From the NCBI RefSeq assembly GCF_033954835.1, contig NZ_CP121471.1, forward strand, positions 4,582,501-4,646,500: a DNA stretch of 64,000 nucleotides, given 5' to 3'. Made by a program: the position numbers and the translations under genes. The DNA is from Thiorhodovibrio frisius. Lineage in GTDB: Bacteria; Pseudomonadota; Gammaproteobacteria; Chromatiales; Chromatiaceae. The notes beneath the pieces were generated by a model, which was not told the DNA's origin, searched no databases, and saw only the letters and a program-made list of their open reading frames with translations. The stretch's first letter is position 1; each line of letters begins with the position of its first letter. Below are positions 1,705 through 17,745 of the stretch, piece after piece.

Positions 1705-3837
1705 ATGCATCTTTTGATCTCCACCCTGGGCACTTCCTGGTCTATCGTGCCGGAGCTGTTTGCGTTCACTAACCCGCAACAGCTTGACCTCTATGCGCAT
1801 CACGAGAGTTGCGCCCAAATTGCCGCCCAGAGAGCGGAGTACGGGATTGTCGGGGTCAATCGGATTTGGGTTGTAACAACCGAGAAGATGCGCACTGATC
1901 GCCTACGAGAATGGGCGGCGCGCATTGAAATGCCCATCGACATCTGGCACCCGCTTGGAGTGGATGAACTGGCGAGTGTTCGCGAGAACCGCGCGATGGC
2001 CGATCTGATCTATCGGGTTGTACTGCGCGGCCGGGAGGTCACCCGCAATGGCCGACTCTATCTGTCTCTGGCCGGCGGTCGCAAAACAATGAGCGCCGAG
2101 ATGCAGCAGGCCGGAATGCTGTTTGGCTGCGACGCGCTGCTCCATGTGGTTGACCGGCAGCTGCCGTCCGGTATCGAGCGACTGTCCGACCAGGATGTTG
2201 GCGCCTTTTGCGCGCCCTTGCCGAAACCCTATGCCGACATCTATCAGCCCTTGGTCACCTTGGGCCGTTGTCCGCCCAACGCCGCGCTAGAGGTCCATCC
2301 CAGTATTCGATCAGCGGATTTTCCGGTTCCACCTGCCGGTGGCGCGGTTCCGCCAGAGCTGCCTCTCTATGAAGAGGTGCGGCGCCGACTCCGGCAAGCC
2401 GACAGTCTGATCTATAACTTCAGTTGCCAGGTGAGCCAGGCCGAAGCACAGAGTAACTTCCATGGGCTCTATATGCTGCCACCTGATCGGGTCAAGGCGT
2501 TGCGCGCCACGCGCCTTGGTGCAGATTCGGCGCGTACCCAAGCCGATCTGGGCTGGCTTGCCCAACTGCCCAAGAGCGATCTGCACTGTCACCTCGGCGG
2601 CGTGCTGGACGCGGCGGGGTTGATCGAAGTCGCCACGACCAGCGCCGCGCAGGTCCGCGAGCGCGAGGCCGTGAATCCCGAACTGGCACGGCAACTGAAA
2701 CAGGTGCGCGCGCTGGCGGCCGCCGAGGATCTGGACGGTCTACGCGCTCTGCTTGGCGCCGCGACCGCCCAGACGCCAGATTTCCGCCAGATTCGACAGT
2801 GGGATACGCAGGAGCCATGGGGCGTCTGTGGCTTCCTGATGGCCTTCACCGACCGCCCGGCATTGCTCGACGCCCTAGTGTTCGACGCCCTGCGCGATCC
2901 GGCCCGCTACCAAGGCATCGGCATCGCCGCTTACGAGCCGCTGGGGGATCTTCAGGGGTCCGCGCTCTTGCAGTGCGAAGCCAGTCTGCGGGCGGCCTGC
3001 GCCATGGTGCGACGCGCGGCCCGGCGCGACCGGCTGCGCTATCTGGAGCTGCGTTGTTCCCCCCACAACTACACGCGCGGCGGACTGAGCGCCCAGCAAG
3101 TCGTTGACATCCTTTTGGATTCCCTGTCTGACGAGACCGATTGCGATATTCGGCTTCTGTTCATTGCCAGCCGGCACCGGCGCATGAGCGAGGCGATTCA
3201 GCATATCGAGCTGGCCCAGGACCTGCGTGCGGCATCGGCCGATTTCCGCCGCCGGTTCGTGGGCTTTGATCTGGCTGGCAACGAGCAGCAGCGCTCCCCC
3301 GTGGAGATGCGCGACGCCTTTCGCCCATTGCTGAAGGCTTGCATTCCGATCAGCATTCACGCCGGTGAGGATCAACCCGTCAACAATATCTGGGAAGCGA
3401 CCTATGAGCTCAGCGCCGAGCGCATTGGCCACGGCCTGACCTTGCACGACAATCCGGAATTGTTGCGGCGCTGTGTCGAGCGTCGCATCGCGGTGGAAAT
3501 GTGTCCGAGTAGCAACTATCAAATCGTCGGATTTCGGGATTTTGTGCTCCAGGCAGGTCCCGACACCCAGTATCCACTGGCCGATTATCTGTCCGCCGGA
3601 TTGCGTGTGACGGTCAACACCGATAATCCCGGGATTTCCCGCACCGATCCCAGCCAAGAGCTCTATAAGGCCGCGGCGATGACGCCGGGCGGGCTGACCT
3701 ATTGGGAGGTACTACAATTGATTCGCAACGGTTTTCAGGCCGCCTTTTGCAACCGCCAGGACCGCCGCGAGCTACTTGGCCGCGCCGAGGCGGAGTTGAT
3801 GGAGTGGCTGACCGAAACGGCTTCACGCGATGTCTGA
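1705..3837 (+). CDS. cad1: CRISPR-associated CARF-adenosine deaminase fusion (Cad1)
   Basis: 710 residues. The N-terminal ~200 residues are a CARF domain: MHLLISTLGTSW at the start and LSLAGGRKTM near residues 121-130, the ligand-binding loop. From about residue 285 there is a complete adenosine deaminase domain. Zinc and catalytic motifs are DLHCHLGG (H294, H296), SIHAGED (H552, E555), RIGHGL (H576) and NTDNP (D640). Cad1 proteins were described as type III CRISPR effectors that convert ATP to ITP when cyclic oligoadenylate binds the CARF domain, halting growth of infected cells. All four zinc ligands and the catalytic glutamate are present, so activity is expected. The residue after the zinc aspartate is Asn rather than the Asp of classical deaminases; that variant occurs in some bacterial adenosine deaminases. 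The gene ends inside the start of the NUDIX gene, implying coupled translation, and faces the cmr operon. Confidence 0.93.
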   Translation: MHLLISTLGTSWSIVPELFAFTNPQQLDLYAHHESCAQIAAQRAEYGIVGVNRIWVVTTEKMRTDRLREWAARIEMPIDIWHPLGVDELASVRENRAMADLIYRVVLRGREVTRNGRLYLSLAGGRKTMSAEMQQAGMLFGCDALLHVVDRQLPSGIERLSDQDVGAFCAPLPKPYADIYQPLVTLGRCPPNAALEVHPSIRSADFPVPPAGGAVPPELPLYEEVRRRLRQADSLIYNFSCQVSQAEAQSNFHGLYMLPPDRVKALRATRLGADSARTQADLGWLAQLPKSDLHCHLGGVLDAAGLIEVATTSAAQVREREAVNPELARQLKQVRALAAAEDLDGLRALLGAATAQTPDFRQIRQWDTQEPWGVCGFLMAFTDRPALLDALVFDALRDPARYQGIGIAAYEPLGDLQGSALLQCEASLRAACAMVRRAARRDRLRYLELRCSPHNYTRGGLSAQQVVDILLDSLSDETDCDIRLLFIASRHRRMSEAIQHIELAQDLRAASADFRRRFVGFDLAGNEQQRSPVEMRDAFRPLLKACIPISIHAGEDQPVNNIWEATYELSAERIGHGLTLHDNPELLRRCVERRIAVEMCPSSNYQIVGFRDFVLQAGPDTQYPLADYLSAGLRVTVNTDNPGISRTDPSQELYKAAAMTPGGLTYWEVLQLIRNGFQAAFCNRQDRRELLGRAEAELMEWLTETASRDV

Positions 3838-4429
3838 TCGACACATCCTGGCCTTTGCCCGCGGCGATTTGCCAGCGCAGTGGTTGCCCGAGCGCGGCGC
3901 CTTGCGCATGGGAAGCACCGAGCTCGCCGAACAGCTCGCACAGCGAAGCCCGGTCTGGCTCCCACGCGCGGCGGCCGAGGAGGACCCGAGCCATAAGCAA
4001 CCCATTCCCTATGTCCTGGTTCGGCATGGGACGCGCCTTGCCTGTTATCGGCGTCAGGGAACTGAGCAGCGCCTGCACGGGCTCCGGTCCGTCGGCATCG
4101 GCGGCCATGTTGAAGTCGAGGACGCGGCGAACAGCCTCCTCGACACCCTGTTGTCCGCCGCCCGGCGGGAACTGCTGGAGGAGCTTCTCGACCTGACGGC
4201 CTGCCCGCCGGTCAGGGTGTTGGGCCTCATCAATGAAGACCTGACCCCCGTGGGTCGCGTCCACCTGGGTATCGCGATGATGGTCGAGATCGACACCCAA
4301 AGGCCGCCACGCGGCGGACCGGAATTACTGGATCTCGACTGGCTACCCCCATCCGTCGCGCGGCAATGCCCCTTGGAGTATTGGAGTCAACTCGCGCTTG
4401 ACCTGCTGGGTGCCGACAAGGCCGCGTAA
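3830..4429 (+). CDS. NUDIX hydrolase coupled to cad1
   Basis: 199 residues. The pattern KQPIPYVLV, then RLHGLRSVGIGGHVEVED, then AARRELLEELLDL is a NUDIX box of the GIGGH type (predicted phosphoesterases, COG4112-like). It has a longer insert between the glycine-glutamate part and REL-x-EE than canonical MutT. The metal-binding glutamates of RELLEEL are present. The start ATG (3830) overlaps the cad1 stop (3835-3837) in another frame, so the two proteins are probably made together. NUDIX enzymes cleave nucleoside diphosphates linked to another moiety. By context, an attractive but unproven role is hydrolysis of ITP/dITP or another nucleotide, either to deepen nucleotide depletion or to limit self-damage. 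The substrate cannot be read from the sequence. Confidence 0.85.
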   Translation: MSDRHILAFARGDLPAQWLPERGALRMGSTELAEQLAQRSPVWLPRAAAEEDPSHKQPIPYVLVRHGTRLACYRRQGTEQRLHGLRSVGIGGHVEVEDAANSLLDTLLSAARRELLEELLDLTACPPVRVLGLINEDLTPVGRVHLGIAMMVEIDTQRPPRGGPELLDLDWLPPSVARQCPLEYWSQLALDLLGADKAA

Positions 4430-4490: not shown

Positions 4491-5783
4491 TTAAGTCCAT
4501 AGCGGCGCTTGCGGGAGCTGGGGCGCGAACTTTTTCAGCCCGGCGCGCGCGGCTTGGGTGCCGAGCAGCGGGATCAGCGCCTGTTCCATCCAGCCGCTAA
4601 AGGCTTCCCAGTCGGCACGGGCAATGGGACGGTCGCCATGGGCCAGGATGGAATAATTGCGCTTGGTGAGCTGATCGAGCATGTGGCCGCGCTCGGCCTC
4701 GACAAAGGCCGCCACCTCGCCGCCAATGTGGTGCGCTGCCAGTTCCCAAGCGTTGCGCAGACCGGCCTGAAGCTTGCCGTCAGGGTTGGCTGTGATCGCT
4801 AAGCTTGCGGGGATTTGCTCGGGCTTGAGATCGCCGGTCAGGATGCCCCGGCCGGCCAGCAGCCATTGCGCGGTCCATTCCAGTAGCCGGTAGCCGCGCG
4901 CGACGGCATCATCGTAGCGGCCCTGGGCGGCGCGGCGCTTGGCGTTGAGCCACAGATCCCACAGCCGGGCCGGGGTCTTCTGCGAGCTGTCATCCTCGGC
5001 GCACAGGTGCTTGAGCGCCAGAAACAGCGGCCCGACTTGAGCGCCGGCCTGACTGCCGAGGCGCGGGCGATAGACCTCAAGCAGTGCACTGGCCTCGGCG
5101 TGGTCGAAGCGATCCCAGGCATCAAAAGCCTGGCTCAGGCTGCGGGCGATCTGCAAATCCCCGCGCAAGCCAGGATCGCGCGGCAGCGGCAGACGCAGTA
5201 GCCCCTCGGCCGCCTCACCGTACGCGAAGCGATCCCAGGCATTGAGATAGGCGCGCATGGCGCGACGCAGGCGAATCTCCTCGGCGCTCACCGCCAGCCC
5301 GGCCTGGCTACCGTCCTGCACCTTGATTAGATCGGCACGGTTGCCGGTAATCAGCTGCAACTCCACCCGGTCGTTATCGAGCGCCGCCATCACCAGCGCG
5401 GCGGTCATGGTTTTGGTGCCGCCGGTGTAATCGGCGATCAGCCGCGCCCGCGGGAATCGTTCGGCGATCTCGGCGATGGCGGCGGTCATAGCCGATACCG
5501 CTTGGTCCAGATCGTCCGTCGGCACCTCCACGGCTTGAAATTGATCATCACCCAGACCGGCCTGGGTCGGGATATTCGGCAGATGCTCGACCACCTGGCC
5601 AGCGCGCCGCACCTCCACCGGATGCCCCTTGCCGGTGATGGTGACTATGGACCCCGGCTGCCCGGTCCCCTGATCGCGTCCACTGGCGAAGAACAGCACA
5701 AAAACCGGCTGAAGCTCGCGAATGGCGGTCAAAATGGGCTGGTGTGAGCCGCCGACTGTGCAGAGGAGGATGGTTTGGGTCAT
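4491..5783 (-). CDS. CARF-HEPN ribonuclease, Csm6-like (TIGR02710/Cas02710 type)
   Basis: 430 residues from the ATG at 5783, which overlaps the upstream DUF2283 stop as ATGA. The N-terminal half is a CARF domain (ILLCTVGGSHQP at the start, DYTGGTKTMTAAL near residues 118-130). The helical C-terminal half ends in RNYSILAH (R375 to H382), an R-x6-H HEPN motif expected at an RNase active site. Proteins of this group are ancillary effectors of type III systems: cyclic oligoadenylate made by Cas10 binds the CARF dimer and activates non-specific RNA cleavage. It is the last gene of the cmr transcription unit. An upstream in-frame Met at 5864 lies inside the DUF2283 gene and lacks homology, so it was not chosen. 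Which ring size it recognises cannot be told. Confidence 0.85.
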   Translation of the reverse strand: MTQTILLCTVGGSHQPILTAIRELQPVFVLFFASGRDQGTGQPGSIVTITGKGHPVEVRRAGQVVEHLPNIPTQAGLGDDQFQAVEVPTDDLDQAVSAMTAAIAEIAERFPRARLIADYTGGTKTMTAALVMAALDNDRVELQLITGNRADLIKVQDGSQAGLAVSAEEIRLRRAMRAYLNAWDRFAYGEAAEGLLRLPLPRDPGLRGDLQIARSLSQAFDAWDRFDHAEASALLEVYRPRLGSQAGAQVGPLFLALKHLCAEDDSSQKTPARLWDLWLNAKRRAAQGRYDDAVARGYRLLEWTAQWLLAGRGILTGDLKPEQIPASLAITANPDGKLQAGLRNAWELAAHHIGGEVAAFVEAERGHMLDQLTKRNYSILAHGDRPIARADWEAFSGWMEQALIPLLGTQAARAGLKKFAPQLPQAPLWT

Positions 5784-6016
5784 GTACAGTCTTTCGTCAC
5801 GAGCGCTTGGGGTTTGGCGCCTAATGGCAGCATGGCTGGAGATTCGGTGTTTGTTGTACCGCACTGACGGATTGCTAACACTTCGATACCGACGAGGCGG
5901 CCTTTGTCGTCGTAATCAGCAATGATGCCGGGCTCCAATTCGCGAGCGGTTTCGACGTCTGCATCGCAAATCTCAAAATAGGCCGCGTCTGCGATTGGGT
6001 CGAGCTCGAGCTTCAT
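5780..6016 (-). CDS. DUF2283 domain protein
   Basis: 78 residues. The first ~50 residues, MKLELDPIADAAYFEICDAD and then EPGIIADYDDKGRLVGIEVL, are a typical DUF2283 domain, a short beta-rich fold of unknown function found widely in bacteria. The gene starts 9 bases after cmr6 and its stop overlaps the start of the CARF-HEPN gene (ATGA). It should therefore be co-translated with the ribonuclease. The pairing suggests, without proof, a partner or regulator of that effector. About 25 C-terminal residues are not conserved-looking. Confidence 0.8.
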   Translation of the reverse strand: MKLELDPIADAAYFEICDADVETARELEPGIIADYDDKGRLVGIEVLAIRQCGTTNTESPAMLPLGAKPQALVTKDCT

Positions 6017-6025
6017 GAGTCCGGC

Positions 6026-7330
6026 TCAAATACAGCCGTCAACCACGGTGCGCAGAAGCTTCTCGCGTTTGACTCGCTGCTTCTCGCGTTGTGGCGGCCT
6101 TAGTCCAGGACCGTGCCACCCCAAGCGCTCGAGTGCGGCGGTCATGGCATCAACTGCCTCTTGGCGCTTGTCGGCTTCTGGCCATTGCTGGGCTAGCTCG
6201 GCCAGCGTGTTGATCATCCCGGAGAAGTTGGCATAGACGTCCTTGGTGAGCGGCGGCTCGCCAAGGCTGGACAGGCCTTGATTGAATTGTCTCAGGGCCT
6301 TTTCGCTCTCGGGCAGGGCCTCGAAGGCTTTGCGCTCAGCCTCGACGCGGGCGGCTTGTTCCTGTTCGCGCTGGCGCTCGGCTTCTTCTCGCGCGCGCTG
6401 CTCCGCGGCGTCTTGTTCGGCCTGTTGCCGGGCCAGTTCGGCGCTGCGGTCGCGCTTCATGGCGCCATAGCCGACGGCGGTCTTGGCGCCGAAGCCGAGC
6501 CATTCAAAGACATGCTCCAGCGCGGCATTGAGCAGGGGTTGCCACGCTTGGGGCGCGGCCAGCTCCAAGGCGATGCGAGCGAGGAACGGCTGATCGCACT
6601 GGATGTGGAAATGAAAGTCAGCGCCGGGCGGGACGGTCAGGAAGTTGATGGGGTTGGGCTGGCCGGATTCGTGAGGGCTAGTCGGGTCCTGAGAACGGGC
6701 TTGCAGATAGTGTGACTGATGGGCGGTCATCACCTCGACCGTTAGGCTCTGACCCGGCAGTTGCGGATAGACATCCCAGAAGGAGAGCGCTCCGCGGACA
6801 TGCTCGGTCTCGTGATCCTGGCTTTGTTTGCCGAAGAGGACATCGAGCAGGCTGAGCGAGATGCGACTTCTGTCAGCCAAGGTCAGGCTGTAGCGCTCGG
6901 CGAGGTCCCAACCCTGGGTGTCGCCCCACTCGCCGCTCGCCAGTTCGCGGGCGGCCTGGCGCAGCACACCTTTCACGCCGCTGCCGGACAGGTAGGGCAG
7001 GCCATAGGGGTTGAGAAAGGCGAAACCGTTTTCGAGTGGATGTTCGTTGCCAAGGCCGGTGGTGAAGGGAGCGATAGCTTTGGCGTCGACGCGCAGCAGC
7101 TGGCCGGCTTGCTGCAAGGGGTTGGCGAGGGCGGTTTGGCGAGCGACCAGGGCGTTCATTAGATGGCGGTCCTGTGGCGTAAGGCGGGTCGCCTCCTTCC
7201 AAGCCTCCTTTTTGTCTTTGATCAGCTTGAATTGTTGATCCCAAGATTTCAGCAAATAGCTGAATCTGAGTCCAGGCGACGCGCCGGCAAAGTCGTTGCC
7301 AAGATAAGCAGGTACAGCGGCAATAGCCAT
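6026..7330 (-). CDS. cmr6: Type III-B RAMP protein Cmr6 with C-terminal coiled coil
   Basis: 434 residues from the ATG at 7330, two bases after the cmr5 stop. The RAMP core shows PFTTGLGNEHPLENGFAFL and LSGSGVKGVLRQAARELA, the Cmr6 signature with its glycine-rich loop, and ends at GFGAKTAVGYGAM. Cmr6 caps the Cmr backbone near the 3' part of the crRNA. After residue ~320 comes a long charged segment rich in E, R, Q and A, predicted to be a coiled coil, then a ~90-residue helical tail. That makes the protein longer than many Cmr6 proteins. The upstream part of the open frame overlaps cmr5 and is a shadow. Confidence 0.93.
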   Translation of the reverse strand: MAIAAVPAYLGNDFAGASPGLRFSYLLKSWDQQFKLIKDKKEAWKEATRLTPQDRHLMNALVARQTALANPLQQAGQLLRVDAKAIAPFTTGLGNEHPLENGFAFLNPYGLPYLSGSGVKGVLRQAARELASGEWGDTQGWDLAERYSLTLADRSRISLSLLDVLFGKQSQDHETEHVRGALSFWDVYPQLPGQSLTVEVMTAHQSHYLQARSQDPTSPHESGQPNPINFLTVPPGADFHFHIQCDQPFLARIALELAAPQAWQPLLNAALEHVFEWLGFGAKTAVGYGAMKRDRSAELARQQAEQDAAEQRAREEAERQREQEQAARVEAERKAFEALPESEKALRQFNQGLSSLGEPPLTKDVYANFSGMINTLAELAQQWPEADKRQEAVDAMTAALERLGWHGPGLRPPQREKQRVKREKLLRTVVDGCI

Positions 7331-7332
7331 GA

Positions 7333-7704
7333 TCAGTGCCCCCCTGCCCGCGAAGCGGCAGCCATCTGGCGCATCCAGCGCAGCCAGGCGAAGGCCTCGG
7401 CTGTGATGGCCTGGAAGGTGCGTGGGTCGGCGTCCATCAGCGCGGTCATGAAGGTCGGGAAATCGTCGCTGGTGAAGGTTCCGGCGAAGCGGCGCCGAAG
7501 CCAGTCGCGCAGATGATTGCTGAGGTCGCGGCAATGGTGCTGACTGGGTTTGGCGCCCTTTTCTTCCAGGAACGCGAAGACCTGCATCAGCCCACTATTC
7601 ATGATCAGCGCCGGCAAGCCCTTGGCGAGCTTGACGTATTCGTCGTTACAACGCTGGGCCTTGCTCCAGGCGTGGGCGGCGCGTGCTTGTTCGAGTGTCT
7701 GCAT
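7333..7704 (-). CDS. cmr5: Type III-B small subunit Cmr5
   Basis: 123 residues, helical. The start MQTLEQARAAHAW and the stretch LPALIMNSGLMQVFAFLEEK are typical of Cmr5, the small subunit that forms a filament along the target RNA in the Cmr complex. It sits four bases after cmr4 and two bases before cmr6, in the usual gene order. No anomalies are seen. Confidence 0.93.
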   Translation of the reverse strand: MQTLEQARAAHAWSKAQRCNDEYVKLAKGLPALIMNSGLMQVFAFLEEKGAKPSQHHCRDLSNHLRDWLRRRFAGTFTSDDFPTFMTALMDADPRTFQAITAEAFAWLRWMRQMAAASRAGGH

Positions 7705-7708
7705 GGCT

Positions 7709-8623
<915 letters not shown>

Positions 8624-8632
8624 CTATCGGGT

Positions 8633-9064
8633 TCAAAAAATGGTGATGTCCAGGTGGTTTTCGGCTGCGCGCTGCAGGCGGTCGTCAGTAGTCCAAAAGT
8701 CGTCGCAGCTGCCAGTGATGGCGGCAGCCAGGTGCAGGGCATCGGGGGTTTTCAACCGATGGGTGGCGCGCAGATCGGTCGCCAGTTCAAAAACGCGCCT
8801 GTCGATTTCGACTTTGACCGCATTGGCGAGAGCAAAAAAATCATCAAAGCGGGCAAGCAATGCCGGGTCCTGGCGGCGCAATGGCCCGACACGGCATTCG
8901 AGGCGCACCAATTCCGAGAACGCAATCTGGGGTCTTGCGCCTTCCGTGGGGAACATCCGCGCGCGGAGATTTTGATAACGGGCTGGGTTGCGTTCGACGT
9001 AATGAATTTCAATGCAGGCATCGAAATACACCCGAGGTCGCGGGGCTATTGAATTCAATCCCAT
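8633..9064 (-). CDS. PIN-domain toxin (VapC-like) inside the cmr operon
   Basis: 143 residues with the acidic residues of a PIN-domain RNase: the D of VYFDACIEIHY, the E of FSELVRLECRV, the D of LKTPDALHLAAAI and the D of FWTTDDRL. The start codon lies 10 bases inside the end of the upstream antitoxin-like gene, so the two are coupled. VapC toxins cleave RNA, often tRNA, and are neutralised by a cognate antitoxin. The pair lies between cmr3 and cmr4 in the same orientation, so it is probably transcribed with the effector complex. Confidence 0.85.
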   Translation of the reverse strand: MGLNSIAPRPRVYFDACIEIHYVERNPARYQNLRARMFPTEGARPQIAFSELVRLECRVGPLRRQDPALLARFDDFFALANAVKVEIDRRVFELATDLRATHRLKTPDALHLAAAITGSCDDFWTTDDRLQRAAENHLDITIF

Positions 9065-9315
9065 GAGGCCCGCTCCTCGGCAATTTCTCGCACAATTTCA
9101 TCGGGGCTGCGGTCGATCGCCGGCTGCTGGGCAAGCCAGGCGTCGAATTCCTCAAGGGTCTTGGGTTTGCTCGGTGTTTCTGGCTCGGTGATGACCCCGG
9201 GTAACTCGGAATAAAGCACAAGCACATCCACATCCCCGCTTGGCACCTCGGGTGGCAGTTGCAGGGTGAGGGAATGGTCATCTTCGACATAGGCTCTGAG
9301 GCGTTCGGCGCGCAT
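9055..9315 (-). CDS. Antitoxin-like protein paired with the PIN toxin
   Basis: 86 residues from the ATG at 9315 (MRAERLRAYVEDDHSLTLQL). A short N-terminal part resembles the beginning of small antitoxins that carry a basic strand, and the C-terminal half has the acidic/aromatic stretch LEEFDAWLAQQPAIDRSPDE. This is the type of segment that wraps a PIN toxin. The family could not be named with certainty. The call rests on size, composition and the 10-base overlap with the toxin gene. It begins 50 bases after the cmr3 stop. Confidence 0.65.
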   Translation of the reverse strand: MRAERLRAYVEDDHSLTLQLPPEVPSGDVDVLVLYSELPGVITEPETPSKPKTLEEFDAWLAQQPAIDRSPDEIVREIAEERASWD

Positions 9316-9365
9316 TGGGTCTCTCCTGGCAATTATTACGTTTGGATACCGGCTGGAAATCGGCG

Positions 9366-10511
9366 CTAGGGCCACAGGGCAAAGCTGAAACGATTAAACC
9401 CCTCGGCGCGGCGTTGGGGATGGTCGCAGGGTTCCGACCAAAGCCCCTCGGCGGCAAGCTTGCCGAGTGCCGCGGGTGTGGCTTCCAGCTCGTCGAGCCA
9501 ATAGACACTGCCGGCAGGCGCGGCGCGCTGGGCGGTTTTCGGCTCCCAGTTGGCCAGATCCCAGCCGGAGACGGTCTGGGCGCGCGGCACGGCGGCGCTG
9601 ACCAGGCGAGCACGCACGCCATGCAGCGCGAAGCGGCCATCGCTGTCGGTGCCGGGCAGGCGCCAGCCATCGGGGAAGATGCCGGGGCTGGTCAGAACCA
9701 GACGGCAGCGGTGGGCTTTGGCGATAACGCGCAGGTGAGTTACCGGTGGAGCGGCGTCGATGCTGGACAGGGCGGCACCGCGCCCATCGCCGCCGAGGCG
9801 CACCAGGCCGGTCGCGGGCGGCTCGGCGCCGGCGATGCCGACGAGGAAGCCAATCTCGGGCTGGAAGGCAACCGCCTGGGCGCTGAACAGCTTGCCGTCA
9901 TCGGCGCGACGCTGCTCGGTGTCGAGTCCAACGCTGATGCGCGGGTCGAGCTGCCAGAGCTTGCCGACCGGGATCAGTTCCGTCGGCGCTGGGACGCGAC
10001 CGGCAAGGTAGTCCACAAAGCCGGCTTCAGTCAGCCAGAGCCCGCCGCCGGGCTTGCGCCGCTCGGACTCACCAAGGATGGGCAGGCGTGGCAGCGAGCT
10101 CGACGCCATGAGACCGGCGGGCAACGGCTGGGGGTGAAGCAGCGACAGGCTTAGCTTGTCGTCGTCGCCGCCGTCGTCGCCTTCGCCGTCGCGGGCGATG
10201 AACAGATCGGCCGGCGGCTCGATCAGCCGCTCGACGGCGCCAGACGCCGCGCGGCGGGCGAGGCAACACTCGGTGAGCCGAAAGCTGCCGGGCGTGGTGG
10301 GCGTGCCGATGCTTGTATGGGTGACTTGGCCGCTGGCGAACTCGGCCAATGCCACGCCGTCGGCCGCCAGCATCAGCGAGCGCAGCGCGCCGGCTGCCGC
10401 CGACGGCGGCGGCGGGATCAGGCTTTCACCGAAGCTGCCGGGCTGGCCAAACAGCTTGTTGCCGCGCAAAAAGAGCACATCGAGCGGTTGCAGGAAGCGA
10501 TAGGCGGTCAT
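9366..10511 (-). CDS. cmr3: Type III-B RAMP protein Cmr3
   Basis: 381 residues. The start YRFLQPLDVLFLRGNKLFG and the following SLIPPPPSAAAGALRSLML are diagnostic of Cmr3, which binds the 5' handle of the crRNA and contacts Cas10. Glycine-rich RAMP elements recur towards the C-terminus. The ATG overlaps the last base of the cmr2 stop region (ATGA, 10508-10511), so translation is coupled to cas10. Confidence 0.93.
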   Translation of the reverse strand: MTAYRFLQPLDVLFLRGNKLFGQPGSFGESLIPPPPSAAAGALRSLMLAADGVALAEFASGQVTHTSIGTPTTPGSFRLTECCLARRAASGAVERLIEPPADLFIARDGEGDDGGDDDKLSLSLLHPQPLPAGLMASSSLPRLPILGESERRKPGGGLWLTEAGFVDYLAGRVPAPTELIPVGKLWQLDPRISVGLDTEQRRADDGKLFSAQAVAFQPEIGFLVGIAGAEPPATGLVRLGGDGRGAALSSIDAAPPVTHLRVIAKAHRCRLVLTSPGIFPDGWRLPGTDSDGRFALHGVRARLVSAAVPRAQTVSGWDLANWEPKTAQRAAPAGSVYWLDELEATPAALGKLAAEGLWSEPCDHPQRRAEGFNRFSFALWP

Positions 10512-13500
10512 GCGGGTTCTCCTAGTGCACCGGCTTTGGCCGGCAACTCTCGCGGCAGGCCGGGAGCACGGGTGCTGGCGATCTTGACGCGACAGTCGCG
10601 GACGAGAAACTCCGCGACCGCCAGGCAGTTTTCCAACCAGCGCAGGGGTTCCCGCTGCGCCGTTGCCAGGGTCGCAAGTCGGCGAGCGAGGCCAGGCAAG
10701 TCGCGATGATCAACAGTGGAGCGGCGCTCGGTCTGGCGCGCGAGTTGGTAACCAAGCAGTTCCGCGAGCATGCGCGGATCGCCGTCAGGGTCAGGCAGAT
10801 CCTTCAGCCACTCAAGACTGTTGTAGACCGCGCGGCGTGACACATCGGGCTCGGCGAGGAAAGCTTGCAGCGCAGTCAACACGGCCATGGGCTCGCCCCA
10901 TTTGGCGCTGAAGCGGCGGATGCCGCCGGAGCGCTTGATGAGCGTGACGCTGAAGGCATCGCGCCCGCCGGCGTTCTTGGCGGCCGACTCGGCCTGACGC
11001 AGCTCCCGCAGCACCATGCCAAGCGGCGCCTGGTGATGGGCGATCACGGCGCCGCAACTGGCGGTGGCGCGCTCGCCCATCAGGCGCAGCAGGCGGCCAC
11101 CCGATCCGGAACCCAGCCAGGCGAAGCCATTGCCAAGGCGCAGCGCGCGAGGGTCCGTGTCGGCGGAGTCCGCGCCGCGCCCGGAGTAGGCGTCGCGCAA
11201 CCGCGCCATGGCTGGCAGCAGATCGCTGACCGGCAGCATGGCCAGCACATCGTCGCCGCCGGCGTAGATGACGCGACCGAGGAATTCCCGCTCCACGACA
11301 TGGCGCACCAGGGTGAGGGCGAAGTCATTCAGCGCGCCGGAGATGGCGAGATGGCGGTTGGGCGACAGGGCGCGGGCTTGCTTGGCATAGGCTTGCAACC
11401 GTGGCTCGTTCTTGGCCTTGGCGTCGAAGCCCGCGCGCACCTGGGGATGAAAGCTGTCTCGATAGCTGATGGCATAGTCCTCGCCGCCGGCGAGCCAGGC
11501 GCCCATGCGATCACCGTCCATCAGTAGCAGAGCGTAATAAGCCTCGATTGGGGCGTCTTCGTCGCTCTCGGCGCTCATGTTCTCGTTCAGGCTCTGGCGC
11601 ACCAGGCGTTCAAGCCGATTGGCTTCTTCGGCATCCTCCAGCTCGCGCGCGACCTCCAGCAGCCCGGCGAGCTGCTTGGCTTCACGCAGGCGTTCACCGC
11701 CCACTTGCCCATGGCGGCGCAGCAAGCCTTGCGGCAGCGCGACACTTGGGGCGCGATAAATTGCCATGGCCTCGCGGCAAGCTTGCGACAGGCCACCGTT
11801 GCTCTCCAGCCAGCGATTGAGCCCGTGCACCAGGGTCATGGCGTGGGTGGAGACGACGAAGCGCTTTATGTCGGCACCCAGGGCCTGTTCCATTTCCGCG
11901 GCAAAGAGCGTCGGCCACAGCCGCTTGATTGCCGGCAGGGCGCCGAGATGCTCGCCGGATTTGGCCCAGGCACGGCGGTGCTTGGCCACCTTGGCCCAGA
12001 GGGTATCCTCGCGCTGGCGATAGGAGGTCGCGAGCTGATCCGGGTCGGTGGTCAGCCACTCGGTCTCGCCGGTCAGGGAGCATCGCCAGCCGCGCTGCTC
12101 GCTTTGCGCGAAGGAGCGGGTGGTCTTGGCAGCGGCCAGCACACGCTCGGCGAGATCATAGACCGCCGGGTAGAGCACACCGGGATTGGGCGAGAAGAAG
12201 GTCGTCCCATCCTGCCAGCGGGTCTCGCGTTGCAGCACCTGCCAGGCCGGCGTGGCGAGGAAGCCGGCGTCCTGCCCGGGCTCGGCGCCGAGGAAGGGCG
12301 CCATGGCGGCGGACAGCTCGGCGGTGTCGAGCGCGCGCTGGCCATCGACCTGGGTTTCCCGGATCAGCCCGAAGGGCACGGCGGCCCAGTGGACTTCCGG
12401 GAAGCCCTGGAGCTGCTCGGCCATTTGGCGATAGCAGTAGAAGTTCGGGTCGGGCGCGATATTGTCAACATCCAAAAGCTTTGCCAGCACTTGCTCGCCA
12501 AGATCCGCTAGCCAAGCGCGCACCCGCTGTTCAACCTGTTCGGCCAGCGCCCGAGCCTGAGCACGCGGCACCAGAGCGACGAAGCGATTGGGCAGCGCGG
12601 CAGAGAACAGCGGATTGCTGTCGGTGCCGCCGCGCGCCCATTCGCAGTCTTTGAACCAGTCACCTGGCAGACCGCAGTTGTCCCGCAGCCAAAGGTCGAC
12701 CTGCGGCACCCCGCGCAGCCGCGGGAAAAGGATGGCATCCGGCCCCAGCGCCTCGCACACCGGGCGCATGGCCTCCCAAGCCAGGCGTGCCAGCAGATGC
12801 GAGCCAGCCCAGAGATCAGACGTTGTGCGCGCGGCGGCGATGAAGGGTTGCACCGGGCCGATGGACAAGGCCAGCAGCGCCGCCTCGCCTTCGGGGTCGG
12901 CCGCGAAGGCGCCGGTGAAGGCGGAGGCCAGGTCGAGATGATCCCAGATGCTGTGATCCGGCACCCTGGTATCGGCGGGCAGCAGATTCCACAGCGCGCC
13001 CAGCTTGCCGAAGTCTTTCTCTTCGAGTAACTCGGGGCCAAAACGCCAGTAGGCGAGCAGAGTGCGTTGCCAGTCGGTCGGGGCATCCGGGCCGGCACCA
13101 CTGGTGAGCCTCAGCCGGTTGAAGTGGGCAAGACTGCGCGCCTTGATGTCGTGAAAATCGGTATCGGCCAGACTGCCGTGACGCCCGAGATCATACTCGG
13201 CGCCGGTCAGCGGGTGGATCAGAACTGGCTGCTTGCTCCACCGCACCTGCGCCCAGTCGGCGACCTTGAGGGTTTTCTCCTCGCCCGAGCGGGTCTTGAC
13301 TTGAAGTGCCTGCATCGGCCATTGCGGGCGGTCGGCGGCGGCGGACCATTGGTCAGCGCGGCGAATCAGAGCATAAAGATCCTTGGGGATGCCATCCTTG
13401 AACAGCGCACCATGCAGTCCGTCCCGGTCGGAGGGGATCGAGTCGCTGTCGTTGCCGGTCAGTCCGAGCAAGCGTTGCAGCGCCTTGGAGGTGCCGCCTT

Positions 13501-13603
13501 CATGCCCGGCTGGATCGCGCAACAGCACCAGCGCCTTTTCGGCTGGATCATGCAAGCGGGCGTGGAGCTTGGCTTGCCAGAGTCTTGTGTTGGTGTCATC
13601 CAT
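10508..13603 (-). CDS. cmr2: Type III-B Cas10 subunit Cmr2 (cyclic oligoadenylate synthase)
   Basis: 1031 residues from the ATG at 13603, preceded by a good GAGGA ribosome binding site. The second palm domain carries the intact cyclase motif VIYAGGDDVLAMLP near residue 780, so conversion of ATP to cyclic oligoadenylate upon target RNA binding is expected. The N-terminus has LHARLHDPAEKALVLL with an H-D pair near residues 18-19 and GHEGG shortly after, as in many Cmr2 proteins; whether this acts as an HD nuclease is unclear. The protein is the signal source for the CARF effectors of the locus. It follows cmr1 by about 11 bases and precedes cmr3 with an overlap. Confidence 0.95.
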   Translation of the reverse strand: MDDTNTRLWQAKLHARLHDPAEKALVLLRDPAGHEGGTSKALQRLLGLTGNDSDSIPSDRDGLHGALFKDGIPKDLYALIRRADQWSAAADRPQWPMQALQVKTRSGEEKTLKVADWAQVRWSKQPVLIHPLTGAEYDLGRHGSLADTDFHDIKARSLAHFNRLRLTSGAGPDAPTDWQRTLLAYWRFGPELLEEKDFGKLGALWNLLPADTRVPDHSIWDHLDLASAFTGAFAADPEGEAALLALSIGPVQPFIAAARTTSDLWAGSHLLARLAWEAMRPVCEALGPDAILFPRLRGVPQVDLWLRDNCGLPGDWFKDCEWARGGTDSNPLFSAALPNRFVALVPRAQARALAEQVEQRVRAWLADLGEQVLAKLLDVDNIAPDPNFYCYRQMAEQLQGFPEVHWAAVPFGLIRETQVDGQRALDTAELSAAMAPFLGAEPGQDAGFLATPAWQVLQRETRWQDGTTFFSPNPGVLYPAVYDLAERVLAAAKTTRSFAQSEQRGWRCSLTGETEWLTTDPDQLATSYRQREDTLWAKVAKHRRAWAKSGEHLGALPAIKRLWPTLFAAEMEQALGADIKRFVVSTHAMTLVHGLNRWLESNGGLSQACREAMAIYRAPSVALPQGLLRRHGQVGGERLREAKQLAGLLEVARELEDAEEANRLERLVRQSLNENMSAESDEDAPIEAYYALLLMDGDRMGAWLAGGEDYAISYRDSFHPQVRAGFDAKAKNEPRLQAYAKQARALSPNRHLAISGALNDFALTLVRHVVEREFLGRVIYAGGDDVLAMLPVSDLLPAMARLRDAYSGRGADSADTDPRALRLGNGFAWLGSGSGGRLLRLMGERATASCGAVIAHHQAPLGMVLRELRQAESAAKNAGGRDAFSVTLIKRSGGIRRFSAKWGEPMAVLTALQAFLAEPDVSRRAVYNSLEWLKDLPDPDGDPRMLAELLGYQLARQTERRSTVDHRDLPGLARRLATLATAQREPLRWLENCLAVAEFLVRDCRVKIASTRAPGLPRELPAKAGALGEPA

Positions 13604-13614
13604 GGGGGCTGTCC

Positions 13615-14664
13615 TCAAGCCGGAAGGCGTTGCAAGTCGGGATGTTGGTCCAGAAAGGCGTGAACCTGTGACCAGACGGCGATCAGCTCCCGAACGCGCG
13701 GGTGGAAAGGCTCATCCGGCGGTCGGCAGGGCACATGCACGATCATCGCGCGCAGTTGGCCATTGACGTCCGGACGCACCTTGAAGCGCAGGCTGTTGGG
13801 CAGGCGGGCATCCTTGCCCCAAGCCTGGACGTTGTGATTGGTGACTGGATAGCTCAGCCAATGGCGGCCTTCAGGATGCTTGGCAAATTTTCCAGCCGTG
13901 AACTTGAACTGGGTTCGCAGACCGATTTTCAGCCGCGCGAATTCCACCATCGCGCTCCGCCAGTCTTTGTGGATTTGCCTGCTTTGCCATTGCAGCGGTC
14001 CATAATCGTCAGCTCCGATCGCATGGGGCCAATCCAGCGCCAGTGCTTGGCCCCAGTCCCGCATCAACTCAAGAGGCAGTCTATCGACATGGTTGAAGAT
14101 AGTGGCAGAGGTCGGTGTCAAGTCAAATGAGCCCCAACCATTGCGGCTGCGGCCGCCGATGGTGCCAAAGCGGTCGATCAGCCCCAGGGCGGTTTCAATC
14201 AGCGGTGCGGCGTCATCGGGGCAGGCGATGGAGAAGACCGCCTGTTCGCCAGCCTGAATGACTGCACTCTTCTTCAAAGCCGGTTGCTTCGAACCTTTCG
14301 GTAGGGTGATCGGTCCGTAACCTAAGTAGAGACCGCCATCGATCGCAAATGGCACATCATCGTGCTTAACCTTCTCAAGCCCGGGCCACTCGCGCTGCTT
14401 GCCCATGTCCCAGCGATCCAGTCGCAGCCGCACCTGGCTCTTGCGCGAGCCATCCTTGCCATCGGCCGCGACACCGAACAGCAGCCCCTCGTCGCGGCGC
14501 ATCTGGTTGATGTCGGGTTGTCCCCCTTCTTGGCAGGCATAGCTGATCCGCCACCACTGCCGCAGCAGCGCCTTGAACGGCGGGGTGCGCCACTGCCCGT
14601 CTTGCTCGGCGTTGCCGAGAAAAGCAGGGGTGTGAAAGGTAATGTGATAGTCAAGCCGTTTCAT
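13615..14664 (-). CDS. cmr1: Type III-B RAMP protein Cmr1
   Basis: 349 residues. The start MKRLDYHITFHTPAFLGNAE and the following WRTPPFKALLRQWWRISY are the Cmr1 hallmark; the RAMP glycine loop is seen as GTIGGRSRNGWGSF near residue 185. Cmr1 caps the crRNA 3' end of the complex. It is the first gene of the tight cmr1-2-3 block. A 177-base gap holding a palindromic element separates it from the upstream CARF gene, so an internal promoter is possible. Confidence 0.92.
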   Translation of the reverse strand: MKRLDYHITFHTPAFLGNAEQDGQWRTPPFKALLRQWWRISYACQEGGQPDINQMRRDEGLLFGVAADGKDGSRKSQVRLRLDRWDMGKQREWPGLEKVKHDDVPFAIDGGLYLGYGPITLPKGSKQPALKKSAVIQAGEQAVFSIACPDDAAPLIETALGLIDRFGTIGGRSRNGWGSFDLTPTSATIFNHVDRLPLELMRDWGQALALDWPHAIGADDYGPLQWQSRQIHKDWRSAMVEFARLKIGLRTQFKFTAGKFAKHPEGRHWLSYPVTNHNVQAWGKDARLPNSLRFKVRPDVNGQLRAMIVHVPCRPPDEPFHPRVRELIAVWSQVHAFLDQHPDLQRLPA

Positions 14665-14841: not shown

Positions 14842-16029
14842 TCATCCCTCGCCTTCGCGCGCCAGGCTGGGGAAGTGAATCGCCGCGGGTTCCAGAGCAA
14901 GCCGATAACGGGTATGCGGCCTCGCGCCATCGGAATGGATGAGATAAGGCTCGGCGAGCTGATCGCCGAGAGCGCGGGTCAGCTCGCGATTGGTGCGCGC
15001 CTTGCGCTGATCGAAGTCGTCCTTTGTCATGCCCTGTGCGAGAGACTTTTCCACGCGATCCAGTTCGGCGCTATCGCGGCCGACGATGCGGCGGTATTCG
15101 CTCAGGTATTGCTCGGCGATGCCCTCGGTGTTCCAGCGCGCGGGGTGGAGTCCTTTTTGTCGGCGTCGGGCCATCAGGGCGAGGAAGGCGAGCGGCGCCG
15201 GGGGGAGATTGATGATCTCGCCGGCGGCCCGGATGCAACGCGCGGCAAGGTCGATGACCAACTCGGCTGGTTGGAGCGCGCGCTGGGCGGCGGCGATGGT
15301 CTCGCCGAAGCTGGCCTGGCCGCTCAGCAGGCGCCCCGGTACCACGCCATCGCGCAGGCGTACGAAAGGCACCTCGGCTAGGGTGACGCGCGCGCTCTGG
15401 GTATCAGCCAGCTTGCCGTCGCGGGTCTCGATCACGCGCGGATAGGGGGTGGGATAAAAGAAGGCCCAGCTTTGCTCGAAGGGCTCGGACACCAGCACAT
15501 GGCTGAGCCGGTCCTGGGCGCGGCCGAACAGCGAGAGCGCATAGCCGGCGTAGTAGCCCATAGTCTTGCGCCCGCCAGCCAGGGAAACATGCAATGCGCT
15601 ATTTGGGTCTGCGGTGATGTCGCGGACGGTCTCGGTGATCTGGTCGGCGACGCGAGCGTTGTCGTCGAGATCGCGAATGTCGGGCAGCGGATGACCCTCC
15701 GCGTCGGTGATGACAACAATGTCATCTACGCTAAAGGGCACGGGTGGCAGGCGATAGTCCTTGAGCAATCGAGAAAACCAGCCAGGATCGGCCGAGAGGA
15801 GACTGAGGCGAGCGCGCTCAGCGCCCTCACTGGTGGTAATCAGGCGGATTTCAGTCGGTATCCAGGGCGGGTCGGCCGCGACGGCCAGGGCGAAGAGCGT
15901 TTCGGTGAGGATTTGCGGAGAAAGTCCGGCGACGGCGAGGAGGACGCGGCGCGGATGCGCTTGGTGCCTTGCCTCACCGACTCCCGTCAAGGAGATGTCA
16001 ATCGCTTGAGTCACCGCCGCTTGTCGCAT
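14842..16029 (-). CDS. CARF ring nuclease-like protein, NE0113/TIGR02584 family
   Basis: 395 residues from the ATG at 16029, preceded by the strong site AGGAGA. The N-terminal ~230 residues are a CARF domain: RVLLAVAGLSPQILTETLFA, then LHVSLAGGRKTMGYYAGYAL. Families with this layout (CRISPR-associated NE0113, also named ring nuclease Csm6) bind cyclic oligoadenylate and may degrade it. The C-terminal ~150 residues are helical with a basic segment (RTNRELTRALGDQL) and GARPHTRYRLAL, resembling a winged helix-turn-helix. No HEPN R-x4-6-H motif is evident in that part, so it is more likely a ring nuclease or sensor than an RNase. It lies between cas6 and cmr1 on the same strand. Confidence 0.8.
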   Translation of the reverse strand: MRQAAVTQAIDISLTGVGEARHQAHPRRVLLAVAGLSPQILTETLFALAVAADPPWIPTEIRLITTSEGAERARLSLLSADPGWFSRLLKDYRLPPVPFSVDDIVVITDAEGHPLPDIRDLDDNARVADQITETVRDITADPNSALHVSLAGGRKTMGYYAGYALSLFGRAQDRLSHVLVSEPFEQSWAFFYPTPYPRVIETRDGKLADTQSARVTLAEVPFVRLRDGVVPGRLLSGQASFGETIAAAQRALQPAELVIDLAARCIRAAGEIINLPPAPLAFLALMARRRQKGLHPARWNTEGIAEQYLSEYRRIVGRDSAELDRVEKSLAQGMTKDDFDQRKARTNRELTRALGDQLAEPYLIHSDGARPHTRYRLALEPAAIHFPSLAREGEG

Positions 16030-16097
16030 TGCGCTTCTCCTTTGTGCTGCGCGGTTTGGCGCCTGATTGGCTAAGGCGACCTGGCAACTGTTGGGGA

Positions 16098-17192
16098 TCA
16101 GCCGGTCTCCTCGCTGACCGATGCAGTTTTCACCCGATAACACCCAAGCCCAAAGCTACTCTGCTTGCCGAGATGCACCCACTGGCCAAGCACAATCAGC
16201 GGCCATAGCTGATCGAGTCCCTGCCCAGTTAGGCGCAGGCTGCCAAGCAGGCCGCCGAGCTGCATGTGTGTCGCCTGGCGCGAGGACCAGCGCGTCCAGT
16301 CCACCCATTCCAGCTCATGGTGTTCGATTCTGACCTGATCGACGGCTTGTTTGAGATGGTCCATGTCGGGCAGGGATAGCTTGGTCCCTTCGCTTGGGTC
16401 CGGGTAAAGTTCTTGCAGCAGCGCGATCCGTGCGATCAATGAGCCGAGCAACGCGCGGCTGTCCAGCTGGTGTTGGCTGACGTATTGGCCACCCCGCTTG
16501 ATGCGCAAGGGGGTAAGCAGTTCAAACTCGAGCGGCTCAGGCCGGGGTGGCGGTGCTGGCGGTGGGCTGGTTTCAAGCGGTATTAGCTGCCCGTTAGCCG
16601 CGTTGAAAATGCATTGCCAGTCGCCGCTGCCAGGCGTACGTTCTTGAGTAACCTCGAGCAACTGAAAACGTCCGTCGGTCCTGCCCAGTCCGCGCTCTCC
16701 AGCCCGCTGCATGGCGTGGATCAGATAGGCGGGAATATCCTGCCTGGGGCCGATGAGGGTTATACCCAGTGAGAGCGGATCTCCGGGCGCATGGTCGCGC
16801 GCACCGGCGGGCGGTGGCTCGAGCACGAATGGGTGCGGCAGCGCGTTGTATCGCAGGGACATCTCAGGCGAGAGCGGAGGTGTTTCGAAAAAGCGCGAGT
16901 AGACACACTGACCGCGCAGCAGACAGCCGTCGCAATGAGGCGCACGGGTCACGCAGACACTTCTGCGCAAGCTGTGGCCGAGCAGACCGCGCCAGGCTGA
17001 GCCGCTAAAATAGGGCAAACGCAGGGCATCAAGGCTCTGGCAGTGGAATCTGAGGCGGCGCAGCTGTAGCACGGGAAAGTACAGGTTCAAGCAAAAGGCG
17101 GAAAGGTTGGCAGGGGTCTTTGTAGCCGTCAGCGGCCTGGAGCCGAGTGCGTGAAGTATATCCCGACCCGCCCGGCATGCACGCCCCGGCAA
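16098..17192 (-). CDS. cas6: CRISPR pre-crRNA endoribonuclease Cas6
   Basis: Up to 364 residues if the TTG at 17192 is used. The cysteine-rich block VTRAPHCDGCLLRGQCVYSR is typical of the Cas6 proteins of type III loci. The C-terminal half has the PF10040-like features FELLTPLRIKRGG and the glycine-rich LGKQSSFGLGCYRV. Cas6 cuts the repeat RNA to make crRNAs. The start is uncertain: the first ~30 codons overlap a palindromic element and look non-conserved, and the recognisable domain begins near NLYFPVLQLRRLRFH. No ATG exists in frame there, so a TTG or GTG start is likely. No CRISPR array for it to process is visible in this window. Confidence 0.88.
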   Translation of the reverse strand: MPGRACRAGRDILHALGSRPLTATKTPANLSAFCLNLYFPVLQLRRLRFHCQSLDALRLPYFSGSAWRGLLGHSLRRSVCVTRAPHCDGCLLRGQCVYSRFFETPPLSPEMSLRYNALPHPFVLEPPPAGARDHAPGDPLSLGITLIGPRQDIPAYLIHAMQRAGERGLGRTDGRFQLLEVTQERTPGSGDWQCIFNAANGQLIPLETSPPPAPPPRPEPLEFELLTPLRIKRGGQYVSQHQLDSRALLGSLIARIALLQELYPDPSEGTKLSLPDMDHLKQAVDQVRIEHHELEWVDWTRWSSRQATHMQLGGLLGSLRLTGQGLDQLWPLIVLGQWVHLGKQSSFGLGCYRVKTASVSEETG

Positions 17193-17213
17193 GCTTGCAG
17201 GCTTGGTTCAGTT
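17188..17213. repeat. Palindromic element (GCAAGCTTGC core), copy 3
   Basis: GGCAAGCTTGC followed by AGGCTTGGTT, nearly identical to the copy at 601-625. It lies in the 16-base gap between the DUF5615 gene and the annotated cas6 start. Confidence 0.4.
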
Positions 17214-17552
17214 TGCGCCAATGATGGTCGCAACACCTTGAGCCGGAGTGATGAGCGCTTGGGTAATGGCGGGTATCAGTGCCTGAAGGTCTTGCAGCCG
17301 ATTCGTCTTGGCATGCAGCACAAGCACGGCAATCTGGAAATTTGATAGGCGTTGCTGGAATGCCAGATTGCGGTCGACGGTGATGAAAGCATCAAATTGC
17401 GTCTGCGCTGCCGCAAGCAAGGCACCGTCTTGTAATCCTGACCACCCCATCTGGGGGACAGTTGTTAGGTTATGGTGCGGGAGTGACCGGGCCAAGCGGC
17501 GGTCAATGCATTCGTCGAGCAAAATCCTAAGCGGCGGCGAGGAGTTGCTCAT
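17208..17552 (-). CDS. DUF5615 PIN-like toxin
   Basis: 114 residues from the ATG at 17552 (MSNSSPPLRILLDECIDRRL). The DECID motif, AAAQTQFDAFITVDRNLAFQ and the ending are the usual acidic pattern of DUF5615 PIN-like proteins, regarded as toxins of type II modules with DUF433 partners. The start lies within the end of the DUF433 gene (overlap about 25 bases). An alternative start at 17576 would lengthen the overlap. It precedes cas6 in the same direction. Confidence 0.82.
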   Translation of the reverse strand: MSNSSPPLRILLDECIDRRLARSLPHHNLTTVPQMGWSGLQDGALLAAAQTQFDAFITVDRNLAFQQRLSNFQIAVLVLHAKTNRLQDLQALIPAITQALITPAQGVATIIGAN

Positions 17553-17745
17553 CGATCTGTTGCCGGACCCGCTCAAGGAGTGCGATAACTTGCTCGCGCT
17601 GGACAGTCGGAAAACCGTCTAGAAAATCCTCGATCGAGTCTCCGGCTTCCAGGTAGTCGATCAAGGTGGCGACGGGCACTCGGGTTCCGGCGAACACTGG
17701 AGTGCCACCCATGATCTGGGAGTCGGTATGGATGATGGCTTTCAT
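17527..17745 (-). CDS. DUF433 antitoxin
   Basis: 72 residues. The sequence MGGTPVFAGTRVPVATLIDY and EAGDSIEDFLDGFPTV are the canonical DUF433 motif (a helix-turn-helix-like domain). These proteins pair with DUF5615 PIN-like toxins, as here. The gene overlaps its partner, so the two are coupled and probably autoregulated. Confidence 0.9.
   Translation of the reverse strand: MKAIIHTDSQIMGGTPVFAGTRVPVATLIDYLEAGDSIEDFLDGFPTVQREQVIALLERVRQQIDEQLLAAA

Follow-up and report, generated by a model that had tools for sequence, protein, structure and literature searches.

Gene order around the pair

The window, that is, the whole 64,000-nucleotide stretch of the Thiorhodovibrio frisius genome that was analysed, carries a type III-B CRISPR operon on its minus strand. 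In transcriptional order this comprises cas6 (16098-17192 (-); PADLOC Cas6, 321 bits), a Cas_NE0113 CARF gene between cas6 and cmr1 (14842-16143 (-)), cmr1 (13615-14664 (-); RAMP PF03787, 35.3 bits; PADLOC Cmr1, 32.3 bits), cmr2/cas10 (10508-13618 (-); TIGR02577, 201.9 bits), cmr3 (9366-10511 (-); Cas_Cmr3 PF09700, 194.6 bits), cmr4 (7709-8608 (-); Cmr4 TIGR02580, 190.6 bits), cmr5 (7336-7827 (-); PF09701, 84.9 bits) and cmr6 (6026-7534 (-); TIGR01898, 100.2 bits over residues 158-359). The cmr6 reading frame starts with TTG, and its first ~150 residues, which overlap cmr5, are probably not coding.

Two further genes lie between cmr3, the upstream flank, and cmr4, the downstream flank: an antitoxin-like gene (9055-9315 (-), 86 aa), identified as an open reading frame that also precedes the PIN gene in relatives standing alone outside Cmr operons (solo copies), and a PIN-domain toxin-like gene (8633-9064 (-), 143 aa) for a putative metal-dependent RNase. 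The pair sits 50 nt past cmr3 and 24 nt ahead of cmr4; this location, orientation and spacing, described in an earlier note on this DNA, were borne out to the base by the reading frames and the Pfam and NCBIfam matches. The two frames overlap by 10 nt (ATGGGATTGA), and ribosome-binding-like sites precede both starts (AGGAGA for the antitoxin-like gene, GAGGAG for the PIN gene). The same cmr3-pair-cmr4 order is also present in other genomes.

A sigma70-like promoter candidate (TTTCCA-16-AATAAT, 9332-9359 (-), 9/12 consensus matches) between cmr3 and the antitoxin-like gene weakly suggests that the pair need not depend on the operon promoter; because the consensus scan found 2 promoter-like sites in 1.1 kb where 0.4 were expected, such a site is weak evidence. 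No terminator-like site was detected within 8500-9600. Direct repeats of ≥24 nt within the window included no CRISPR array; an array of ~29 repeats of 37 nt lies 4-6 kb outside its left edge (L153:14150-16152). When the genome's 37-nt repeat was compared with the 1.2 kb around the pair, the best ungapped match had 17 identities, against a mean of 19 for 30 shuffles, and its end octamers had no match there.

A second TA-like pair (17208-17745 (-)) stands at the 5' end of the operon, 15 nt ahead of cas6, and consists of a DUF433 gene (17527-17745; PF04255, 66.5 bits) and a DUF5615 PIN-like gene (17208-17576; PF18480, 26.8 bits); tblastn retrieved no relatives of it in loci L033-L152. At the other end of the operon, 9 nt after cmr6 and ahead of a TIGR02710 CARF gene, a DUF2283 gene (5780-6016 (-)) is possibly a lone antitoxin-like gene. 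Elsewhere in the window, a run of 15-nt GC-rich tandem units occurs within a large ORF region (35150-35267 (+)).

The PIN protein and its partner

The PIN protein matched PF01850 with 46.5 bits, the Pfam cut-off being 23.6. Four acidic residues, D15, E56, D108 and D127, are invariant in 19/19 sequences (alignment A2), and we take them to be the catalytic tetrad known from PIN proteins. Once five relatives outside A2 were added, all four were found in 22 of 24 PINs, the exceptions in that alignment being L178, which lacks the E, and L182, which lacks the last D. AlphaFold2 modelled the protein confidently (pLDDT 93.8), and most of the model's top Foldseek matches are VapC toxins, the first being 7by2_B (E 6.4e-06); a profile search of PDB sequences returned one sequence at E ≤0.01, that of 7by2/7by3. 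Judged by sequence and model, the PIN protein is predicted to fold like VapC and has the four acidic residues of that fold. Pfam found neither a CARF nor another sensor domain in this single-domain protein of 143 residues, which also had no PADLOC match.

The partner of 86 residues has no above-threshold match in Pfam or NCBIfam (two sub-threshold DUF matches, E 0.12), and its relatives are likewise without a family (one scanned by Pfam, three by NCBIfam). These scans assigned it to none of the known VapB classes (AbrB, RHH, Phd, HTH), and a PDB profile search gave chance-level matches only (best E 0.11). Seventeen aligned partner sequences share an N-terminal LxLPxxxPxGxxxVIVL stretch and, within the C-terminal helix that bears an EERASW motif in the window, an E-R-x-x-W core; besides the start, P21, G27, E81, R82 and W85 are invariant in 17/17. 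The AlphaFold2 model of the partner, which has two C-terminal helices, was too poor overall (pTM 0.32) for a fold search.

The earlier description of the pair as VapBC-like holds for the toxin (PF01850, VapC fold) and needs qualification for the partner, which has no antitoxin family in Pfam or NCBIfam. With VapBC, whose nearest solved member is the Klebsiella pneumoniae TA complex 7by2/7by3, it shares the PIN fold, the acidic residues and the small overlapping upstream gene; it differs in its location inside a CRISPR effector operon and in its antitoxin. On its sequence, the pair is apparently intact and VapBC-like, with a putative antitoxin outside the Pfam and NCBIfam families, and adds an antitoxin family without a match in either. 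The upstream gene would encode the antitoxin and the PIN protein would be a VapC-type RNase toxin, the two forming a type II-like TA cassette. The C-terminal EERASW helix of the antitoxin probably covers the PIN active site, and on a presumed analogy with VapB tails its R82 may enter that site.

The PIN-antitoxin pair is not CRISPR-specific. PINs of the window's kind were found at E ≤1e-10 in 25/210 host-family genomes, with 34 matches among those listed, one gene being in two pieces. Only 3/34 listed matches lie inside Cmr operons and 31/34 outside, where 'inside' refers to the operons from the Cmr4 search and the other 31 neighbourhoods were annotated for the partner gene only. A solo paralog is also found in the window's own genome. 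Among 27 solo PIN loci, the upstream match to the antitoxin profile exceeded 40 bits in 9, reached 12-15 bits in 3, and was below 10 bits or missing in 15. The two other genomes of the genus had neither a window-type PIN nor Cmr4 at the thresholds used. An antitoxin gene of the window's kind also lies close to a contig end, ~1.4 kb past cmr6 of a III-B operon from the distant set (L064:374-688 (-)).

Occupants of cmr and other operon junctions

The Cmr4 search gave a match in 41/210 host-family genomes, at 52 places among the matches listed. Operon stretches were taken from 40 listed places and the window, 11 places being left aside, and 80 further loci, kept of 199 matching relatives, came from scanning contigs with a profile built on 11 Cmr4 proteins. 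Removal of seven duplicates (L073, L074, L075, L077, L096, L116 and L151) left 114 loci including the window, namely a close Cmr4 clade of 84 loci, 83 of them with a measurable cmr3-cmr4 junction, and 30 distant III-B loci. Gaps were computed between profile matches, and inserts of ≥250 bp were read.

Such an insert is present between cmr3 and cmr4 in 28/83 close-clade loci, a frequency that is not a population estimate because the loci were chosen via two conserved Cmr4 peptides and one host family (41/52 listed places, window included); related loci are not independent in this and the other junction counts. All of the inserts (28/28) are TA-type, RhuM-Fic and HepT-MntA being presumed to be so, and the other 55/83 gaps, of 12-247 bp, contain no insert of this size. 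The occupants are of four unrelated kinds, AT-PIN (7), RhuM-Fic (7), Phd-PIN (11) and HepT-MntA (3), some of them partly deleted; Pfam names come from a single representative per kind (two for AT-PIN), and the rest were assigned by similarity to it. AT-PIN occupants (the window, L041, L042, L102, L137, L148 and L149) are in sense orientation, as are those of the RhuM-Fic and HepT-MntA types, and the Phd-PIN occupants are antisense. The cmr3-cmr4 junction is thus a recurrent TA slot, which is the outcome of the comparison across related loci that the earlier note had proposed. Comparison of the junction edges suggests that the cassettes supply their own ribosome-binding site for cmr4, and revealed no clear target duplication.

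In the distant III-B loci of the host family, cmr3-cmr4 inserts were found in 2/30: an Unstab_antitox protein with a RelE-like second gene, the latter named by eye, in L050, and, in L048, a gene whose DUF4351 match is below threshold. An apparent insert in L047 was rejected, as cmr3 continues there in another frame. The gap in L148 includes part of cmr4, probably through a frameshift. In a Zoogloeaceae cmr operon, one PIN gene is preceded by two antitoxin genes in tandem, both of the window's kind (L102:1221-1781). Two III-B loci of one metagenome bin differ at this junction, one (L125) carrying Phd-PIN and the other (L136) a 12-bp empty junction; both have a VapB-PIN type insert at cmr1-cmr2.

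Several cassettes are decayed. The PIN of L042 is internally deleted, L149 retains the antitoxin without the toxin, L086 and L147 have internal deletions, and the PIN of L132 is split across two frames. In the closest relative, L033 (76% Cmr4 identity), only the last ~40 PIN residues remain, in a 154-bp gap. With the operon retained in loci whose toxin is broken, the cassette is dispensable.

Trees were used to follow the history of the slot. Mapped onto a Cmr4 tree (84 loci), the five states of the slot require a minimum of 16 changes, compared with a mean of 27.8 for shuffled states, and AT-PIN occupants are spread over three distinct supported clades; these counts do not distinguish gain from loss, and the bootstrap had yet to converge completely. 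A PIN tree was built from 5 embedded and 23 solo copies, leaving out the truncated PIN of L042, the remnant of L033 and four fragmentary solo copies; forcing its embedded PINs to be monophyletic lowers the log-likelihood by 40 units (AU p 0.0016). In this tree the PIN embedded in L041 is the sister of a solo PIN, that of L157 (97/91), from a genome in which Cmr4 had no match. Descent of the embedded PINs from a single origin is therefore rejected, which supports at least two separate captures of this PIN family into cmr3-cmr4.

Inserts also occur at other cmr junctions of the close clade, several of them named by eye beside a Pfam-named representative. The cmr1-cmr2 junction is filled in 7/68 measured loci, always by an antisense VapB-PIN type; the cmr2-cmr3 junction in 4/75, by MNT-HepT, an AbiEii-like gene and two SLFN AlbA_2 genes, the last kind not being TA; and the cmr5-cmr6 junction in 9/84, eight with an antisense RHH-PIN_3 type or its remains and the ninth being L143. 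No insert was found at cmr4-cmr5 (0/84). Over all cmr junctions of the close clade, 45/48 inserts are TA-type. A cmr2-cmr3 insert of L119 was rejected as cmr2 sequence, and cmr1-cmr2 gaps of distant loci were discarded because RAMP genes were confused. Three cmr2-cmr3 inserts of distant III-B loci were kept out of the close-clade counts: that of L045, that of L062, which is a run of N, and that of L069, with DUF29 as well as a DUF5615 gene on the other strand.

Type I and nif operons served as controls. In I-F operons, no inserts were found at csy2-csy3 (0/23 in the host family, 0/23 in the class) or at csy3-csy4 (0/23 at class level). In the best 30 I-E loci of the host family, neither the 29 measurable cse2-cas7 junctions nor the 30 cas7-cas5 junctions contained a TA insert; L265 has a gene between cse2 and cas7 that is cas6e-like by eye and is not TA. 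Apparent inserts in I-F L186 and L195 proved by eye to be cas6f followed by CRISPR arrays, and those in I-E L247 and L269 to be adjacent cas5/cse2 genes. The nifD-nifK junction, with wider gaps of 68-192 bp, had no insert in the best 30 loci of the host family (0/30); a nifH-nifD gap of 281 bp was seen in L356. In the host family, close-clade III-B junctions were filled in 5/11 loci, against 0/23 for I-F (Fisher p 0.0017) and 2/30 for distant III-B (Fisher p 0.0096); the Fisher tests took 24 I-F class loci, for which a recount gives 23. Gaps are about -1 to 57 bp at the I-F and I-E junctions, 68-192 bp at nifD-nifK and 12-247 bp at empty cmr3-cmr4 junctions. Because similar or larger I-F, I-E and nif gaps are without a TA insert, the size of the empty junction fails to explain the slot.

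A second slot, which was unforeseen, emerged from one of these controls. In I-C operons, csd1-csd2 was empty (0/30 in the host family, 0/26 in the class), whereas csd2-cas4 was filled in 13/28 loci of the host family and 11/24 of the class, L320 being counted as filled. Of these inserts, 10 in the host family and 10 in the class are TA-type (20/24), with names given by eye for L313, L315, L326, L236 and L231 as well as for partner genes in several other inserts. They include MazEF-like, HicAB, ParE with Unstab_antitox, DUF433-DUF5615, MNT-HEPN, DUF4258 with an MqsA-like zinc protein, RhuM (first 140 residues scanned) and one lone MazE-like antitoxin, the scores behind the MazF/MazE, MqsA, L215 RelE and HicB-like names being below the curated cut-offs. 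The non-TA inserts are transposase-like genes in L214 and L226, and L230 and L320 have no recognised gene, so this slot is not reserved for TA. For L219, a gap of 93 bp from profile matches was overruled by reading of the sequence. DUF4258/MqsA-like genes also follow csd2 in L312, where cas4 is out of reach and the locus is uncounted. The window's own genome also has an I-C locus (L321), in which a DUF433-DUF5615 pair lies between csd2 and cas4.

Possible roles of the cassettes

A recurrent TA slot in III-B operons and a second one in I-C, with none at the tested I-F and I-E junctions, offer a testable case in which protein addiction may stabilise immune operons, and so bear on how costly CRISPR systems are kept and lost. 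We lean, with modest confidence, towards a self-contained TA cassette that acts in the operon as a resident addiction module. A cell that deleted or replaced the stretch would lose its antitoxin supply and be poisoned by residual toxin, and the cassette together with the linked cmr genes would be held in place without a sensor or crRNA control. Generic TA modules would be captured at insertion-tolerant junctions, swapped and later lost to decay. Orientation on either strand, diversity of families and frequent decay speak for generic addiction rather than for a specific biochemical role in CRISPR immunity. The sequences are best read as exchangeable generic addiction cassettes at tolerant junctions, for which a guard role is plausible. 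More tentatively, and with doubts that outweigh our confidence, we suggest that class 1 CRISPR operons of certain subtypes, those of the present III-B clade (cmr3-cmr4 and other cmr junctions) and of I-C (csd2-cas4), have dedicated TA slots, whose interchangeable cassettes would have been selected for making operon deletion or replacement lethal and which would together amount to a protein counterpart of CreTA that uses any available TA family.

The recurrent TA slot fits the addiction device that the earlier note had put forward; self-maintaining hitchhikers fit equally. The excess of TA among the inserts could come from TA self-maintenance alone, without benefit to CRISPR, and the pair would then be a selfish or neutral passenger of a tolerant junction, persisting since TA loss is costly and neither guarding nor helping the CRISPR system. 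We regard this as possible but rather doubtful. The location of 31/34 listed PIN-family matches outside Cmr operons agrees with it, as do several decayed toxins in operons that are still present, occupants on both strands, and an I-C slot that lies at the boundary of effector and adaptation genes and also takes transposase-like genes. It is less easily reconciled with the I-F, I-E and nifD-nifK junctions, which without a TA insert show gap size alone to be inadequate, or with the repeated filling of the same slot by unrelated TA families. On the sequences, we give somewhat more weight to addiction with real operon retention than to pure hitchhiking.

The other readings are less probable. According to one, which we hold to be improbable, phage shut-off or cleavage of the operon transcript would free the PIN protein as an extra effector in a CRISPR-coupled abortive infection. 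The same-strand overlapping genes and the lack of a terminator-like site in 8500-9600 are compatible with it, and PIN toxins can stop growth; the PIN protein, however, has no CARF or other sensor domain, its family is not dedicated to type III loci (3/34 listed matches in Cmr operons), and the pair has a promoter-like site of its own. Because 11/28 occupants (Phd-PIN) are on the opposite strand, turning off the operon promoter would not in itself be enough to silence them. The idea in the earlier note of an extra RNase released on operon shutdown finds no support here, given these antisense occupants of the same slot, the 31/34 listed matches elsewhere and the decayed toxins of relatives. It is very unlikely that the genes are no TA pair at all but encode a PIN RNase and its small accessory subunit for housekeeping or RNA processing. 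That reading would accommodate a partner outside known antitoxin families and the weak (<10 bits) or absent antitoxin-profile match in 15/27 solo loci, yet the small overlapping upstream gene, a pairing kept in other solo copies, the conserved C-terminal E-R..W helix of the partner and the patchy distribution (25/210 host-family genomes) all speak against it. The least likely of all is a guard in which the crRNP represses the toxin via a degenerate CRISPR repeat. Its appeal lies in functional analogy only, as CreTA safeguards CRISPR-Cas according to the abstract of PMC10097628; the repeat match near the pair (17/37) is below the shuffled mean of 19, no end octamer matches, and toxin and antitoxin here are proteins.

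As described in the abstract of PMC10097628 and in passages of PMC12737573, CreTA resembles the present pair in that a TA lies within a cas locus and may lead to addiction. The CreTA toxin and antitoxin are RNAs whose repression needs the CRISPR effector, whereas the window's pair consists of proteins, and a creA-type ectopic repeat was not found beside it by ungapped comparison. Association of TA-like genes with cas genes has been noted before, Table 3 of Makarova 2006 listing PIN, HicB and AbrB/MazE as 'loosely associated' (PMC1462988); unlike the present survey, the passages concerned give no junction-level pattern, family exchange or frequency. PMC3506569 mentions CARF-PIN fusions, and according to its abstract typical antitoxins do not seem to be encoded in immunity loci, a statement with which the complete TA modules in the slots conflict. 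By term search of two later sources, the term VapBC is absent from a 2025 TA/CRISPR review (PMC12737573), and the terms toxin, antitoxin and PIN from a 2024 type III survey (PMC11229360). None of the titles and abstract starts listed by full-text searches of an open-access library described TA modules in the cmr3-cmr4 or csd2-cas4 junction, and a prior mention is possible. Shmakov 2018 and Shah 2019 reportedly surveyed CRISPR-linked genes.

With type III accessory effectors (CARF-fused nucleases, Csx1/Csm6) the window's PIN shares the occurrence of an RNase-type gene in a type III operon; unlike them it has no CARF, has an antitoxin-like partner, and belongs to a family found mostly outside Cmr operons. 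The window also contains a CARF-adenosine deaminase gene (1705-3837 (+); PADLOC CARF5--CARF_ADA, 779 bits), which is divergent from the Cmr operon and overlapped by 8 nt by a gene that is a NUDIX hydrolase by eye (3830-4429 (+)). A NUDIX partner for a Cad1-like nucleotide effector would merit attention.
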